A DNA stretch of 64,000 nucleotides, from contig CAOJUB010000001.1 in NCBI GenBank assembly GCA_948443805.1, positions 241,487 to 305,486 on the forward strand, read 5' to 3'. The notes beneath the pieces are model-generated. The model ran no database searches. It had not been told where the DNA came from and worked only from the letters and a program-made list of their open reading frames with translations. Every line of letters begins with the position of its first letter. The stretch's first letter is position 1. The position numbers and the translations under genes were made by a program. Source of the stretch: an uncultured Clostridia bacterium (GTDB lineage Bacteria; Bacillota; Clostridia; Oscillospirales; UBA644). Positions 31,585-54,030 of this stretch are shown piece after piece.

Positions 31585-32742
31585 ATGACGTTTTTACTGG
31601 TTCTGATCTATCTTTCCTTTATCAGCCTGGGGTTGCCGGACTCGCTGCTTGGCAGCGCATGGCCGGTCATGTATGCCGATTTTTCAGCGCCGATCTCTTT
31701 TGCCGGCGCGATTGCTATGACGGTTTCGGTCGGGACGGTGGTGTCCAGTTTTTGGAGTTCTCGGCTGATTTCCTGGTTCGGTACAGCGAAGGTCACCGCT
31801 GTCAGCGTGGCGATGACAGGGCTTTCCCTGATCGGTTTTTCGTTCGCAGGACAAATCTGGCTGCTCTTTTTATTTGCCGTTCCTTTGGGGTTTGGCGCCG
31901 GTTCGGTTGATGCGGCCTTAAATAATTTTGTTGCGCTGCATTATAAGGCGAAGCATATGAACTGGCTGCACTGCTTCTGGGGGATCGGCGCGACTGCCGG
32001 TCCGGTGGTGATGGCTTTTTGGATCTCGGCCGGCAGCTGGCGCGGCGGTTACGGAACGGTCGCCCTGATTCAGTGTCTGCTCGCCGCGGTTCTGTTTGCA
32101 ACATTGCCTGCCTGGAAAAAGGTATCTTCTTTGCCCGGCGGGGCGGAAGAAAAACCGTTTCGGCATATCCCAGCGAATCAGATTCTGCAAATTCCGCTTG
32201 CCAAGCCGATGTTTGTTTCTCTTTTTTGCTATTGTGCGGTTGAAACCACCGTTGGTTTGTGGAGTGCGAGTTTTTCTTCGGTTCTTTACGGTGTTTCTCA
32301 GAAAATTGCCGCTTCCTATGCCGCCGCTTTTTATTTCGGCATTACGGCGGGGCGTGCGGCTGCCGGATTTCTTTCGGTAAAATGGGGCAATTTTCAGATG
32401 ATCCGTCTCGGTCAGGCGCTGATCGGCGCCGGGCTTCTGTTTTTGCTGGTTCCGGTTGGGCTTTGGCGGATTCCGGTGGGGTTGGTTCTGATTGGGCTTG
32501 GCTGTGCGCCGATTTATCCGGCGATGCTGCACCAGACGCCGAAAACATTCGGTGAAGAAAATTCGCAGGCTATGATGGGGATTCAGATGGCGAGCGCGTA
32601 TATCGGTTCTTCTCTGATGCCGCCGGTTTTCGGTTTTTTGTCTTCTTTTTTCAGTATGCGCCTTTTTCCTTTCTTTGTTGCGGTGGCGCTTCTTCTGATG
32701 ACGTTTTGCACCGAAATTGTCCGCCGCCGGACAGCAACTTGA
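31585..32742 (+). CDS. MFS transporter
   Basis: 385 residues, about 12 helices, major facilitator superfamily. FISLGLPDSLLGSAWPVMYAD resembles the N-terminus of the FucP/sugar-permease-like group; LHCFWGIGATAGPVVM lies at the mid-protein loop. The track starts 32 codons early; GGAGAAAG precedes the ATG at 31585. Substrate unknown, although the next gene is a lactaldehyde-reductase-like dehydrogenase, which would fit deoxy-sugar use. The ADH promoter TTGACA overlaps its stop codon. Confidence 0.88.
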   Translation: MTFLLVLIYLSFISLGLPDSLLGSAWPVMYADFSAPISFAGAIAMTVSVGTVVSSFWSSRLISWFGTAKVTAVSVAMTGLSLIGFSFAGQIWLLFLFAVPLGFGAGSVDAALNNFVALHYKAKHMNWLHCFWGIGATAGPVVMAFWISAGSWRGGYGTVALIQCLLAAVLFATLPAWKKVSSLPGGAEEKPFRHIPANQILQIPLAKPMFVSLFCYCAVETTVGLWSASFSSVLYGVSQKIAASYAAAFYFGITAGRAAAGFLSVKWGNFQMIRLGQALIGAGLLFLLVPVGLWRIPVGLVLIGLGCAPIYPAMLHQTPKTFGEENSQAMMGIQMASAYIGSSLMPPVFGFLSSFFSMRLFPFFVAVALLLMTFCTEIVRRRTAT

Positions 32743-32767
32743 CATTTTTATACAGGAATGGTATAAT
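32739..32767 (+). promoter_or_regulatory. Consensus promoter reading into repeat locus 1 and the alcohol dehydrogenase
   Basis: TTGACA (32739-32744), 17 bp, TATAAT (32762-32767). The transcript would begin at the first palindrome of the structured repeat. Confidence 0.85.
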
Positions 32768-33000
32768 AAAAAACAGCAAGCTGTTCTTATGAAAAAAGCG
32801 TTTCAACCATCCGGTTGAAAATCCGTTCCGGATGCCCGCTTTTTTCTGGTGCGAAATTCATGTGGTATCATATACGCAGAATGTCTTGCAGCGCAAAACT
32901 TTGCGGCTTTGCCTCAGGAATGAATCACCGCATAAAAATGCCTCTGCAAGCATTTTTGCTTATAATAATCAAGAACAGCAAGCTTTTTCTCTGGGGTTGG
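32768..33000 (+). repeat. Structured intergenic repeat, locus 1
   Basis: A short palindrome AACAG-CAAG-CTGTT (32772-32785) is followed by a 9-bp outer stem AAAAAAGCG/CGCTTTTTT (32792-32800 with 32837-32845) enclosing two hairpins, TTTCAACC-ATCC-GGTTGAAA and ATCCG-TTC-CGGAT: a three-way junction on paper. Then come CTGGTGCGAAATTCATG and a more diverged segment with TATACGCAGAA, all shared with locus 2. A second, incomplete AAGAACAGCAAGCT palindrome lies at 32971. No credible coding frame. It forms the ~290-nt leader of the alcohol dehydrogenase gene. Confidence 0.75.
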
Positions 33001-33061: not shown

Positions 33062-34210
33062 ATGGCAAACAGATTTGTACTCAACGAAACTTCTTATCAC
33101 GGCGCCGGGGCGATCGGTTCGATTCCCGACGAGATCAAAGCCCGGGGCTTTCAGAAGGTTTTTGTCGCCTCTGATCCGGATCTGATCAAATTCGGCGTGA
33201 CGAAAAAAGTGACGGATCTTCTGGAACAGGCCGGGATTTCCTATGAACTGTTTTCTGAGATCAAGGCGAACCCCACAATCGCCAATGTCAAAGCCGGCGT
33301 TTCTGCTTTTCAGGCCTGCGGTGCGGACTGTATTGTGGCTATTGGCGGCGGTTCGTCGATGGATACGGCGAAGGCTGTTGGCATTATTGTAACCAACCCG
33401 GAATTTGCCGATGTCGTCAGTCTGGAAGGGGTTGCGCCGACAAAAAATCCGGCTGTGCCGATTATTGCAGTCCCCACTACCGCCGGAACGGCTGCGGAAG
33501 TTACCATTAACTATGTTATTACCGATGAAGAAAAAAACCGGAAAATGGTTTGCGTGGATGTTCATGATATTCCGGTCATCGCCGTGGTGGATCCCGATAT
33601 GATGGCGACGATGCCCAAAGGTCTTACCGCCGCGACCGGTATGGATGCGCTTACACACGCGATTGAGGGTTATATTACAAAAGGGGCTTGGGCTCTTTCG
33701 GATATGTTCCATTTGGAGGCCATCCGGATCATTGCCAAAAATCTTCGCGGCGCGGTCGCCAATACGCCGGAAGGGCGCGAAGGCATGGCTCTCGGTCAGT
33801 ATGTCGCCGGTATGGGCTTTTCCAATGTCGGGCTGGGTATCGTTCATTCAATGGCGCATCCGCTCGGCGCGCTCTATGATACGCCGCATGGCGTAGCTAA
33901 TGCGATTATTCTGCCGACGGTGATGGAATACAATGCGCCGGAAACCGGGGATAAATATAAATATATCGCGCAGGCTATGGGGGTAGAAGGAACCGAGGCC
34001 ATGTCGGTGGAAGAATACCGGAAAGCCGCAGTCGATGCTGTCAGACAGCTTTCTGCCGACGTCGGTATTCCGGCCGATCTGAAAGAAATCGTCAAGGAAG
34101 AGGATATTCCTTTCCTTTCCCAGTCGGCGTACGACGATGCCTGCCGTCCGGGGAATCCGAGAGATACCAGTGTAGAAGAGATTTCCGAGCTGTATCGTTC
34201 TCTTCTGTAA
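33062..34210 (+). CDS. Iron-containing alcohol dehydrogenase (FucO-like)
   Basis: 382 residues, group III alcohol dehydrogenase. NAD-binding GGGSSMDTAKAVG and PTTAGTAAEVT are present, with iron-ligand motifs DALTHAIEGY and HSMAHPLGALYDTPHG. Resembles lactaldehyde reductase FucO, but substrates vary widely in the family. AAAAGGAGAG precedes the ATG at 33062; the track start 13 codons upstream lacks a site. Likely reoxidises NADH by reducing an aldehyde in fermentation. It ends in a strong terminator. Confidence 0.92.
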   Translation: MANRFVLNETSYHGAGAIGSIPDEIKARGFQKVFVASDPDLIKFGVTKKVTDLLEQAGISYELFSEIKANPTIANVKAGVSAFQACGADCIVAIGGGSSMDTAKAVGIIVTNPEFADVVSLEGVAPTKNPAVPIIAVPTTAGTAAEVTINYVITDEEKNRKMVCVDVHDIPVIAVVDPDMMATMPKGLTAATGMDALTHAIEGYITKGAWALSDMFHLEAIRIIAKNLRGAVANTPEGREGMALGQYVAGMGFSNVGLGIVHSMAHPLGALYDTPHGVANAIILPTVMEYNAPETGDKYKYIAQAMGVEGTEAMSVEEYRKAAVDAVRQLSADVGIPADLKEIVKEEDIPFLSQSAYDDACRPGNPRDTSVEEISELYRSLL

Positions 34211-40779: not shown

Positions 40780-40808
40780 TTGAAAGTTATGGATTGTTGT
40801 GGTATAAT
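40780..40808 (+). promoter_or_regulatory. Promoter reading into repeat locus 2 and the LysR gene
   Basis: TTGAAA (40780-40785), 17 bp, TATAAT (40803-40808). As at locus 1, the palindrome begins within a few bases of the -10. Confidence 0.8.
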
Positions 40809-41290
40809 AAAGAACAACAAGTTGTTCTTGGGAAAAACATCTTTCGGCTATCCAGCCGAACAGCGCGTTGTGCTGCCGGTGTTTTTCCGGTGCGAAATTC
40901 ATGGTATAATATACGCAGAAAGCCTTGCATAGCAAGACTTTGTGGCTTTGCCACTCCGTGCGGAGCACGGCTGCGATATTGAATCATGTCGCAAAGAACG
41001 CCAATGCAAACACTATTTGCATGCAAGCAAACATTTTTGCTTCATGGTATAAAAAGAACAGTAAACTGTTCTTGGAAAAAAACGTTTCAACCGTTCGGTT
41101 GAAAATCCGTTTCGGATAACCGCTTTTTTCTGGTGCGAAAATTCGGGGATAGAAAAAGAACAACACCTTTCGGCTATCCAGCCGAACAGCGCGCTGCGCC
41201 GCCGGTGTTTTTCCGGTGCAAAATTCATGGAAAGAAAAAGAACAACAAGCTGTTCTTTAGAACAGTAAACTGTTCTTATAAAAATTCAAG
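40809..41290 (+). repeat. Structured intergenic repeat array, locus 2 (three units)
   Basis: Unit 2a: AAGAACAAC/GTTGTTCTT palindrome, then outer stem GGAAAAACA/TGTTTTTCC (40831-40839 with 40880-40888) enclosing TTCGGCT-ATCC-AGCCGAA and CAGCGC-GTT-GTGCTG. Unit 2b: AAGAACAGT/ACTGTTCTT, outer stem 41076-41084 with 41121-41129 enclosing TTTCAACC-GTTC-GGTTGAAA and ATCCG-TTT-CGGAT. Unit 2c: AACACC/GGTGTT (41162-41167 with 41204-41209) around nearly the same hairpins as 2a. Each ends with GGTGCRAAATTC (2b GGTGCGAAAATTC). Between 2a and 2b lie further hairpins (CCGTGC/GCACGG, TGGC/GCCA). Two more palindromes close the array. Confidence 0.75.
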
Positions 41291-41313: not shown

Positions 41314-42207
41314 ATGGAACTCAGAGTTTTACAGTATTTTCTCGCCGTGACAAGAGAACAGAGTATTTCGGGGGCGGCTGCGTCTCTCTACCTTTCACAG
41401 CCGACGCTTTCCCGGCAGTTGAAGGAACTGGAGGAGGAACTCGGCAAGCAGCTGATAATTCGCGGCAACCGCCGTGTTACGCTGACCGAAGAAGGAATGA
41501 TTCTTCGCAAAAGGGCGGAAGAAATTCTGGAACTTGTTCAAAAGGCAGAAGAGGAAATCTCCAGAGCAGAGGAGACAGTTGCCGGCGAGATTACCGTTGG
41601 TGCGGGAGAAACCGACGGTATGCGGTTTTTGGTCAAGGCCATGCACTCGTTGCAGCAAGAATATCCGCTGGTACATTTCCATGTTTTCAGCGGCGATAAA
41701 GCAACGATTATCGAACAATTGGACCGGGGCCTGATTGATTTTGGCCTTGTTTTCGGTGCTGTTGATGAGGCCAGGTATGAGGAAATTACCATTCCCTATC
41801 AAGATACCTGGGGTGTTTTTATGCGCCGGGATTCTCCTCTAGCAGAAAAAGCAACAATTACGGCGGAAGATTTGATGGATAAACCGCTGATTTTTTCCCG
41901 GCAGGCGTTTCGGAATCAGGAATTCCGGAAATTTTTTCCCTGCGGCCAGGAGTCGTTGAATATTGTCGCTACTTATAATTTGCTGTTTAATGGTTCGCTG
42001 ATGGTAGAGGAGGGCATGGGGTATGCCGTCAGTTTTGATAAAATTATCAATCTGTCGGGCAACCGGGCGCTGTGTTTCCGGCCGTTGGAACCGTCGTTGA
42101 AGGCCAATATGCATGTTATTTGGAAAAAATATCAGGTGATTACCAAAGCGGCGGAAAAGTTTCTCCGAAAATTGCAGGAGAATCTTGAAAGCGCTGCCGA
42201 ATCGTGA
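41314..42207 (+). CDS. LysR family transcriptional regulator
   Basis: 297 residues. N-terminal winged helix (LRVLQYFLAVTREQSISGAA, then LYLSQPTLSRQLKELEEELG) and a periplasmic-binding-type effector domain from about residue 90 (ITVGAGETDGMRFLVKAMHS). GGAGG is 7 bases before the ATG at 41314; a TTG 3 bp upstream is possible. LysR regulators often control the divergent gene, here the 82-aa/DUF3737 operon, but the repeat array separates them. Effector unknown. Confidence 0.93.
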   Translation: MELRVLQYFLAVTREQSISGAAASLYLSQPTLSRQLKELEEELGKQLIIRGNRRVTLTEEGMILRKRAEEILELVQKAEEEISRAEETVAGEITVGAGETDGMRFLVKAMHSLQQEYPLVHFHVFSGDKATIIEQLDRGLIDFGLVFGAVDEARYEEITIPYQDTWGVFMRRDSPLAEKATITAEDLMDKPLIFSRQAFRNQEFRKFFPCGQESLNIVATYNLLFNGSLMVEEGMGYAVSFDKIINLSGNRALCFRPLEPSLKANMHVIWKKYQVITKAAEKFLRKLQENLESAAES

Positions 42208-51566: not shown

Positions 51567-54030
51567 TCAGGACGCCTTCACGCCGATCGGATAGGGCAGA
51601 TTCGTCCATTTCGCCAGATAGCGGGCGAGAACCACGCTTTTGGCTGAGGAAATATTGCCGTCGTTGTTGAAATCGGCGGCGACTTTGTTGAAATTGTCGC
51701 TCATCACCCATTTTGCTAAGTAGCGGGAGGTCAGAACCTTGTCTTTTGAAGTAACCCGTTCATCGCCGTCCACATCGCCCCAGACAAAGGACTGCGTGCC
51801 GACCGTCGCAAAAACGACTTTTGAAGCCAGGAATGACCGAACATTTTCCGGCATCTGGATCACTTTCCATTCCGCCTCTGTGCCGGCATAGTGAATCTCA
51901 CTCAACGCATCGCAGCCAGTGAAAGCATTTTCCCCGATTTTAGCTACATTCAAAGGAATTACAACATTCGTCAACGAGGTGCAGCCGGAAAACGCATTGT
52001 TTCCGATTGCGGTTATGCTGTCAGGAAGAACTAACATAGACAGCGAAGCGCAGTCTTGAAAAGCGGAATCTCCGATTGCCGTTACTTTCACTCCGTTGAT
52101 CTCCGACGGAATCATGACATTGGCGGAAGAACCGGTATATTTTGTAACCGTTCCGGCGGTTTCGCCAAATTGATAATCAGCAGGGTTCGAAGAAACAAAC
52201 ACGACCTTCGGGGTCAGGAATTCCCAATCATCTGCGACCATCTCAATCGCTTGCCAATTTTCCTCCGTGCCGGAATAAAATACTGTATTTAAAGAAGAGC
52301 AACCGAAAAAAGCAGGATAGATAGCAAGTGCCGTGCCTGTTGCCTCAAAATCCCCAATACGCGTCACGCTGGCAGGAATTGTTACATTTGTTAGAGAGGT
52401 GCAATTGCTAAAAGTATATTCTCTGATTACCGTCACACTTGACGGAACTGTATAAGAATTTGCCTTTTTCCCTGCGGGATAAGAAATTAAAGTTTTTTTA
52501 TCTTTGGAAAAAAGTACGCCATCGACAGAAGTATAACTCTTGTTGGATTCAGAAACTTTGATTTCTGTCAATGAGGTGCAGTTGAAAAAAGCTTCTGACT
52601 GGATTGTCGTCACACTGTCCGGAATTGTCACGTTTGTCAACGATGTACAGCCTTCAAAAGCCATCCACCCAATTGTCGTCACGCTGTCCGGAATCGTAAC
52701 GCTTGTCAACGAAGTGCAACCGTAAAAAGTATAATCCCCGATTCCCGTCACTTTTACGCCGTAGATCTCTTCCGGGATAACGACCTCAGCCTCAGAACCG
52801 ATATAATCTGTAATTGTTCCGGTTGCTACATCAAATATAAAATCAGATTGGAGAAAAGAAAGAAAGCTTACTTTCGGAGTCAAAAAATCACGGTCATCTG
52901 TTGACATCGAAATTGATTGCCAAGCTTCTTCTGTTCCGGCATAGTATATCGTTAAATAGAAATTGCCCCAAAAAGCGGAATTCCTGATTGTCGTCACACT
53001 GTCTGGAATAGCCACTTGTGTCAACGAGGCGCAATTTCCAAAAGCATTAGCCCCAAGTTCCGTCACACCATTTGGAATCGTCACACTCGTCAGCGAGGTG
53101 CAGCTTAAAAAAGCAGAAGACCCGATTTCGGTCGCACTGTCTGGAATCGTTACGCTTGTCAGCGAGCTGCAATCGGAAAACGCGGAATCCCCGATTGTCG
53201 TCACACTATTCGGAATTGTTATGCTTGTCAACGAGGTACAGCCTCCAAAAGCCCACCAATTGTTGTCACACTGTCAGGAATCGTGACGCTTGTCAACGAA
53301 GTACAACTAAAAAAAGCATTTTCCCTGATTGTCGTCACACTATCCGGAATCGAATAACTTCCGGATTTCCCGCTGGGGAAATAAACGAGTTCTTTTTTAT
53401 CTTTCGTGAAAAGTACACCATCGATAGAAGAATAAGCGGTATTTTTTTTCCGCCACATTGATTTCTGTCAGTGAGGAGCATCGGGTAAAAGCATAATCGT
53501 CGATTGTCGTCACACTATTCGGAATCGTTACGCTCGTCAGCGAGGTGCAACTAAAAAAAAGCACTTTCCCTGATTCTCGTCACATTGTCCGGAATCGTTA
53601 CGCTTGTCAACGAGGTGCAATCGTAAAAAGCAGATTTCCCGATTTCCGTTACACTGTTCGGAATTGTTATGCTTGTCAGCGAGGTGCAACCATTAAAAGC
53701 AGAATACTTGATTTCCGTTACACTGTCCGGAATCGTTACGCTTGTCAGCGAGGTGCAACCTTCAAAAGCAGAATCCCCGATTGTTGTCACCTTTACGCCG
53801 TTAATCTCTTCCGGGATAACGACCTCAGCCGCAGAACCGATATATTCTTCAATTGTTCCGGTTGCTGCGTGAAACCGGAAATCCGAAGCTGGCGTTGCCT
53901 CAGAAACCGTTTCTATAGCCGCTGTGGGAAGTTCAACGGTCGGCAGCAAACCGATCATCAGCGCTGTAACCAACACCATGGCGAAAAAAGACAAGCTTTT
54001 TCGTCTCCAATTTTTCAATATTTTCCCCAT
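51567..54030 (-). pseudogene. BspA-type LRR surface protein with C-terminal dockerin, frameshifted
   Basis: Reads as one ~820-residue protein broken by three single-base frame changes. Order: signal peptide (MGKILKNWRRKSLSFFAMVL), three regions of BspA-type LRR_5 repeats (FxGCTSLTSVTIPDSVTxIG), some after DFRFHAATGTIEEYIGSAAE-like spacers, and a type I dockerin (about the last 70 residues; GDVDGDERVTSKDKVLTSRY, DFNNDGNISSAKSVVLARYL). Breaks lie near 53551 (eight-A run), 53440 (eight-T run on plus) and 53265 (a missing G). The frames resume exactly, so the lesions are recent or are sequence errors. Track pieces: 53551-54030, 53228-53458, 51567-53231. Probably a cell-surface or scaffold-docked adhesin. 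Confidence 0.8.

Follow-up and report, generated by a model that had tools for sequence, protein, structure and literature searches.

Small interspersed repeats are the closest described systems to the element analysed here, which is itself such a repeat in kind, like BOX, SPRITE and the MITEs (PMC3049150, PMC10969869). In the available portion of their description (PMC3049150), the BOX repeats of Streptococcus pneumoniae are modular, vary in the number of their modules, form strong folds and are sometimes transcribed with neighbouring genes, and the authors judged them to be parasitic rather than specialised. The likeness between the boxA-boxB-boxC repeats and our element is one of modular principle: the modules are different, and no fixed position after a -10 box is reported for BOX in that portion of the text. 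SPRITE is comparable as an interspersed repeat that is intrinsic-terminator-like once transcribed, but it consists of an 18-bp duplex and a U-rich tract, whereas the module called J below is a three-way junction and belongs to a larger modular unit at promoters. Correia elements and other prokaryotic MITEs (PMC10969869) are short, non-coding, dispersed, folded and often promoter-adjacent, and the mtrCDE promoter has a Correia element a short way 3' of it (PMC10969869). Our element is likewise short, non-coding, multi-copy, dispersed and structured. MITEs, however, carry terminal inverted repeats and target-site duplications, whereas inspection of our element found no inverted terminal repeats (left ends AAAGAACAG or ATACGCAG, right end TTCATGGTATAAT) and a duplication is not established. 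REP and REPIN sequences, with their RAYT transposases (PMC8049555, PMC3733652), are also short, palindromic and dispersed, but the present genome has no Y1 transposase, no GTAG/CGTC tag was noted, and our element sits at promoters. In the open-licence literature we found no repeat described as having a fixed place at the -10/+1 boundary.

The window, meaning the whole 64,000-nt stretch of DNA that was analysed, carries the element in front of an alcohol dehydrogenase (ADH) gene, with the following features.

32739..32767, plus strand: host sigma-A promoter TTGACA-N17-TATAAT bearing the element (12/12 consensus, spacer 17)
32762-32767, plus strand: TATAAT of this promoter, with TTGACA at 32739, 17 bp upstream
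32768..32788, plus strand: module P, the palindrome AAAAAACAGCAAGCTGTTCTT, directly 3' of the -10 box
32791..32846, plus strand: module J, type A (109 bits with model R1), a three-way junction whose closing stem is GAAAAAAGCG/CGCTTTTTTC, reading GAAAAAAGCG, then TTTCAACC-ATCC-GGTTGAAA, then ATCCG-TTC-CGGAT, then GCCCGCTTTTTTC
32847..32862, plus strand: module E, TGGTGCGAAATTCATG
32866..32967, plus strand: decayed C module, TATCAT to TATAAT (model R2, 36.8 bits, E 2.9e-5; DNA match to the C consensus)
32971..32990, plus strand: partial second P, AAGAACAGCAAGCTTTTTCT
33062..34210, plus strand: Fe-containing alcohol dehydrogenase (Pfam PF25137/PF00465; ribosome-binding site GGAGAG)

The TATAAT, the adjoining palindrome and the mismatch-free three-way junction that the first-pass annotation had described before the ADH gene are all present at these positions. 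The J module at this locus has 23 pairs with zero mismatches; its RNA has a minimum free energy of -26.7 kcal/mol vs -15.6 +/- 3.0 for shuffles (z -3.7), and the fold is the proposed junction. The element was earlier taken to end at 32850, but the decayed C module and the partial P continue the leader, which is therefore a composite (P-J-E, decayed C, partial P) filling the space up to the ADH gene. The start of that gene is likely the ATG at 33062; the alignment of homologues mostly begins only at about residue 14 of the longest open reading frame.

The palindrome had also been read as the first transcribed bases. It does follow the -10 box directly, but a sigma-A start usually lies about 7 nt past the -10, so the start site probably falls within the dyad, which would run from about -5 to +15, and the left arm of P would be mostly untranscribed. 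On this view P is more readily seen as a palindrome of the DNA than as a hairpin at the 5' end of the RNA. On either side of its central AA the flanking bases mostly complement each other (C-G in 32/53 and T-A in 12/53), although a 2-nt loop would keep them from pairing if P formed an RNA hairpin.

A second locus with the same promoter-palindrome-junction order had been proposed before a LysR gene. It is there, at 40803-40903, and is followed by more copies at 41053-41280, so that the array upstream of the LysR gene has the order B-C-A-B-P-P.

40780..40808, plus strand: promoter TTGAAA-N17-TATAAT
40809..40903, plus strand: unit 1, P + J type B + E (model R1, 105 bits)
40905..41054, plus strand: C module, four-way junction and 3' hairpin (matches to the C model and consensus)
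41053..41146, plus strand: unit 3, P + J type A + E (model R1, 98 bits)
41149..41229, plus strand: unit 4, J type B + E, with no intact P (model R1, 61 bits)
41237..41280, plus strand: two tandem P palindromes at the end of the array
41314..42207, plus strand: LysR-family regulator downstream of the array

Elsewhere in the window (51900-53890), a 69-bp repeat array lies within a minus-strand open reading frame that probably encodes a leucine-rich-repeat-like protein.

The genome as a whole is a draft of 1.81 Mb in 35 contigs and is 98.85% complete. It contains 44 matches to the 107-bp element, far above chance and with the best other copies 92-95% identical, and 15 to the C module; these counts vary with the thresholds, and we curated junctions and clusters manually. 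A regulatory RNA module that is mobile or duplicated, as first proposed, is largely borne out, on a scale far beyond two loci and with a structure backed by covariation between junction types. Four kinds of module, P, J, E and C, are found singly or as arrays. P is a 20-bp dyad with the consensus AAGAACAGCAAGCTGTTCTT, J is a 56-nt three-way junction of at least three covarying types (A, B and a third at L014), E is GGTGCGAAATTCATG, and C combines a four-way junction with a long hairpin on its 3' side. Arrays and modules typically terminate in a CATGGTATAAT-like sequence, the typical end of P-J-E or C being TTCATGGTATAAT. Degraded copies occur alongside near-identical ones.

Several loci depart from this anatomy. 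The minimal element at L158 (G000:C2:127500-130500, P at local position 1550) follows a TAAAAT promoter and has P joined directly to E, with no J and with TAACAT on its right side. At L021 (G000:C10:51225-51338), one J is preceded by five tandem 21-bp P-like units. A longer, divergent J-like module is found at L159 (G000:C6:68235), where the next gene resembles an alpha-galactosidase. Two consensus promoters on contig C23 of the same genome (L180 and L176) are each directly followed by a hairpin of other sequence (AAGAATAAAAACC-TCTGC-GGTTTTTATTCTT and TGCAAAAAGCCTTGC-AAA-GCAAGTTTTTGCA), perhaps representing additional module types.

We scored 34 outermost junctions for -35 match and spacing, taking 619 other TANAAT sites as the control. 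At these 34 sites the first module lies directly 3' of a -10 box. A -35 match of at least 5/6 is present at 26 of the 34, vs 6% of the control sites, and where the -35 matches at least 4/6 the spacing is exactly 17 bp in 27 of 29 cases. P and C have unlike left ends and an identical start point after the -10. Occupancy of TGGTATAAT sites in the genome follows the same pattern, with 11/18 occupied where a -35 of at least 4/6 is present vs 1/15 where it is not (Fisher p 0.003); the sparing of the non-promoter sites may partly be selection, since they are probably coding. One exception is L024, where the element follows a stop codon (CAATAA). Apart from the promoter motifs, the sequences upstream of the 34 junctions are unrelated across loci, and the promoters therefore lie outside the repeat. 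We consider it likely that we are dealing with a mobile-like repeat of the MITE/BOX kind, small, non-coding and built of modules, that has inserted immediately downstream of sigma-A -10 boxes. On the best reading it would be non-autonomous. Always landing directly after the -10 would be an unusual insertion specificity.

Structure is conserved among the copies. Among the 33 different J sequences, 90.3% of the cells in the pairing are paired and 14 of the 23 pairs have changed on both sides; the covariation score was reached in 0/500 shuffles and was lost when the partners were slid. Because much of this is the switch between types A and B, the covariation reflects few events, and some changes within type A are compensated as well (L018, L023, L024). 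C modules also preserve their pairs across double changes. Template-switch correction of palindromes could keep up such complementarity free of selection, and covariation alone is therefore no proof of RNA function.

If the element is a mobile-like repeat, copies would arise via transposition or site-specific recombination, with the enzyme supplied in trans. At an unoccupied site, TTGACA-N17-TGGTATAATA would be joined directly to the sequence that now lies beyond the element. The module end TTCATGGTATAAT would remake a -10-like site behind which the next module could be added; an element that ends in its own extended -10 recreates its target, which would account for the arrays. A more specific version, which we put forward only tentatively and which is rather doubtful as it stands, is a class of mobile element that targets the working sigma-A promoter and inserts at the -10/+1 boundary (for example, in DNA opened by RNA polymerase), the extended -10 at its far end permitting both host-gene expression and the next insertion. 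In the own genome, -10 variants correlate on both sides of the element (TAGAAT at L029, TAAAAT at L031 and TACAAT at L018), which hints at direct duplication of the -10 there; a permutation test on junctions picked by hand gave p 0.007. Other genomes do not support a duplication: where the left copy differs, the right one is still GGTATAAT and looks element-encoded.

Searches of the own genome for the Y1 transposase (Y1_Tnp), reverse transcriptase (RVT_1) and the TnpB zinc domain gave 0 matches; at 98.85% completeness the Y1 search remained empty, and control genomes were positive. Mobilisation of the IS200/IS605 or RAYT type, and retro-mobilisation, were rejected on these grounds. The same lack of a candidate among the families searched would suit spread without any enzyme, by tandem duplication or by homology-driven recombination between TGGTATAAT sequences, as would the TGGTATAAT-like sequence that bounds the modules and the exact or near-exact tandem copies at L009, L017, L196 and L203. 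We regard this as quite improbable: it needs many ectopic events on ~10 bp of homology, and alone it leaves the dispersal of the C form across families of the order (see below) unexplained.

Upon insertion of a mobile-like repeat at this position, the host promoter would transcribe a structured leader, in which J may act as a leaky terminator or attenuator, and the P dyad over +1 may serve as a DNA-level site. The extended -10 at the 3' end of the element may restart transcription, which would explain its tolerance before essential genes. A repeat that always landed there could change dozens of leaders together and leave the genes intact.

J had been proposed to terminate transcription, giving a ~75-nt RNA. 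This is possible and compatible with its GCG..CGC-UUUUUU end, in which only 3 GC pairs lead from the junction to the U-tract. The position of the copies before pyrH, ispD, mgtE and a tRNA-Ala/tRNA-Trp pair argues against full termination at J, unless the 3' -10-like sequence restarts transcription. A rival reading is a multi-copy family of small RNAs, each consisting of a promoter and P-J (or C) and ending at the J U-tract, with read-through into the neighbouring gene incidental. Although the promoters are strong, the J fold is stable with CGC-UUUUUU present, and some copies have no same-strand gene after them, most copies lie close upstream of a same-strand gene, the promoters are unrelated to one another, and a scan of the J sense strand found no standard hairpin-T terminator. 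A small-RNA family is thus very improbable.

The association with the ADH gene is incidental, and the reading as an ADH-linked leader was rejected. Among 80 named ADH loci encoding proteins of 79-87% identity, 0/80 have a copy before the gene, no carrier of the C module was found, and unrelated genes follow the other copies. The downstream functions are mixed, including Fe-ADH, LysR, an amino-acid-kinase family protein (read as pyrH), IspD, amidohydrolase, MgtE, DegV, GGDEF, MatE, thioredoxin and the tRNA-Ala/tRNA-Trp pair; no common function or regulon is evident among the genes downstream of copies in the own genome. This bears on the reading of the element as a cis-regulatory leader, duplicated and selected for co-regulation, with P as an operator over the start and J as an attenuator. 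The position relative to +1 is constant at all copies, P is symmetric to the bases flanking the central AA, as would suit a dimeric DNA-binding protein, and J shows covariation and has a terminal U run. We nevertheless think such a regulon unlikely, in view of the functionally unlike downstream genes (pyrH, ispD and tRNAs among them), the copies with no same-strand gene, the P-less C modules in the same position, the decay and array formation of the copies, and the absence of P-J-E from relatives: it was not found in 19 genomes of the same family, where an apparent match in G040 bore no trace of the element on reading, nor in 394 of the order, for which few candidates were scored per genome.

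The P pattern likewise had no match in 84,980 GTDB species genomes, the own genome possibly excluded. Rfam 15 gave no match at the P-J-E or C modules at the gathering score and E<=1, and BLAST against phage and plasmid sequences gave none. In viral contigs there was no match for the E, B-type J or C patterns; the P pattern did match there, but in sequence otherwise unlike the element and lacking J and E, and these matches were read as chance.

The C form is more widespread, with matches in 24 other genomes from several families of the order. These genomes differ in the sequence of the four-way junction but share an almost unchanged 3' part, ATTGACGGCTTCGCAAAAATGCCCTTGCAAGCAAGCATTTTTGCTTCATGGTATAATA. 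Most copies begin immediately 3' of a TATAAT that is usually preceded by TG and often accompanied by a -35, and they end in TTCATGGTATAAT. A -35 of at least 4/6 accompanies 10/15 of the TATAAT-bounded copies vs 24% of the control, which is weaker promoter support than in the own genome. In two congeneric genomes the copies occupy corresponding loci (L200, L201), and vertical inheritance of copies is therefore possible. The spread of a related form at promoters across the order suggests mobile DNA of small size that takes up residence at promoters, and the C form offers a system for asking how the site is chosen and how the leaders affect expression. In genome G338 (C3, L182/L193), a module of another type follows TTGACT-N17-TATAAT and ends in ATCATGGTATAATAAAAATG, with GTATAATAAAAATG on both sides. 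In genome G165 (C28, L195), C-type units stand in tandem, and the start of the gene directly downstream resembles a DNA cytosine methyltransferase.
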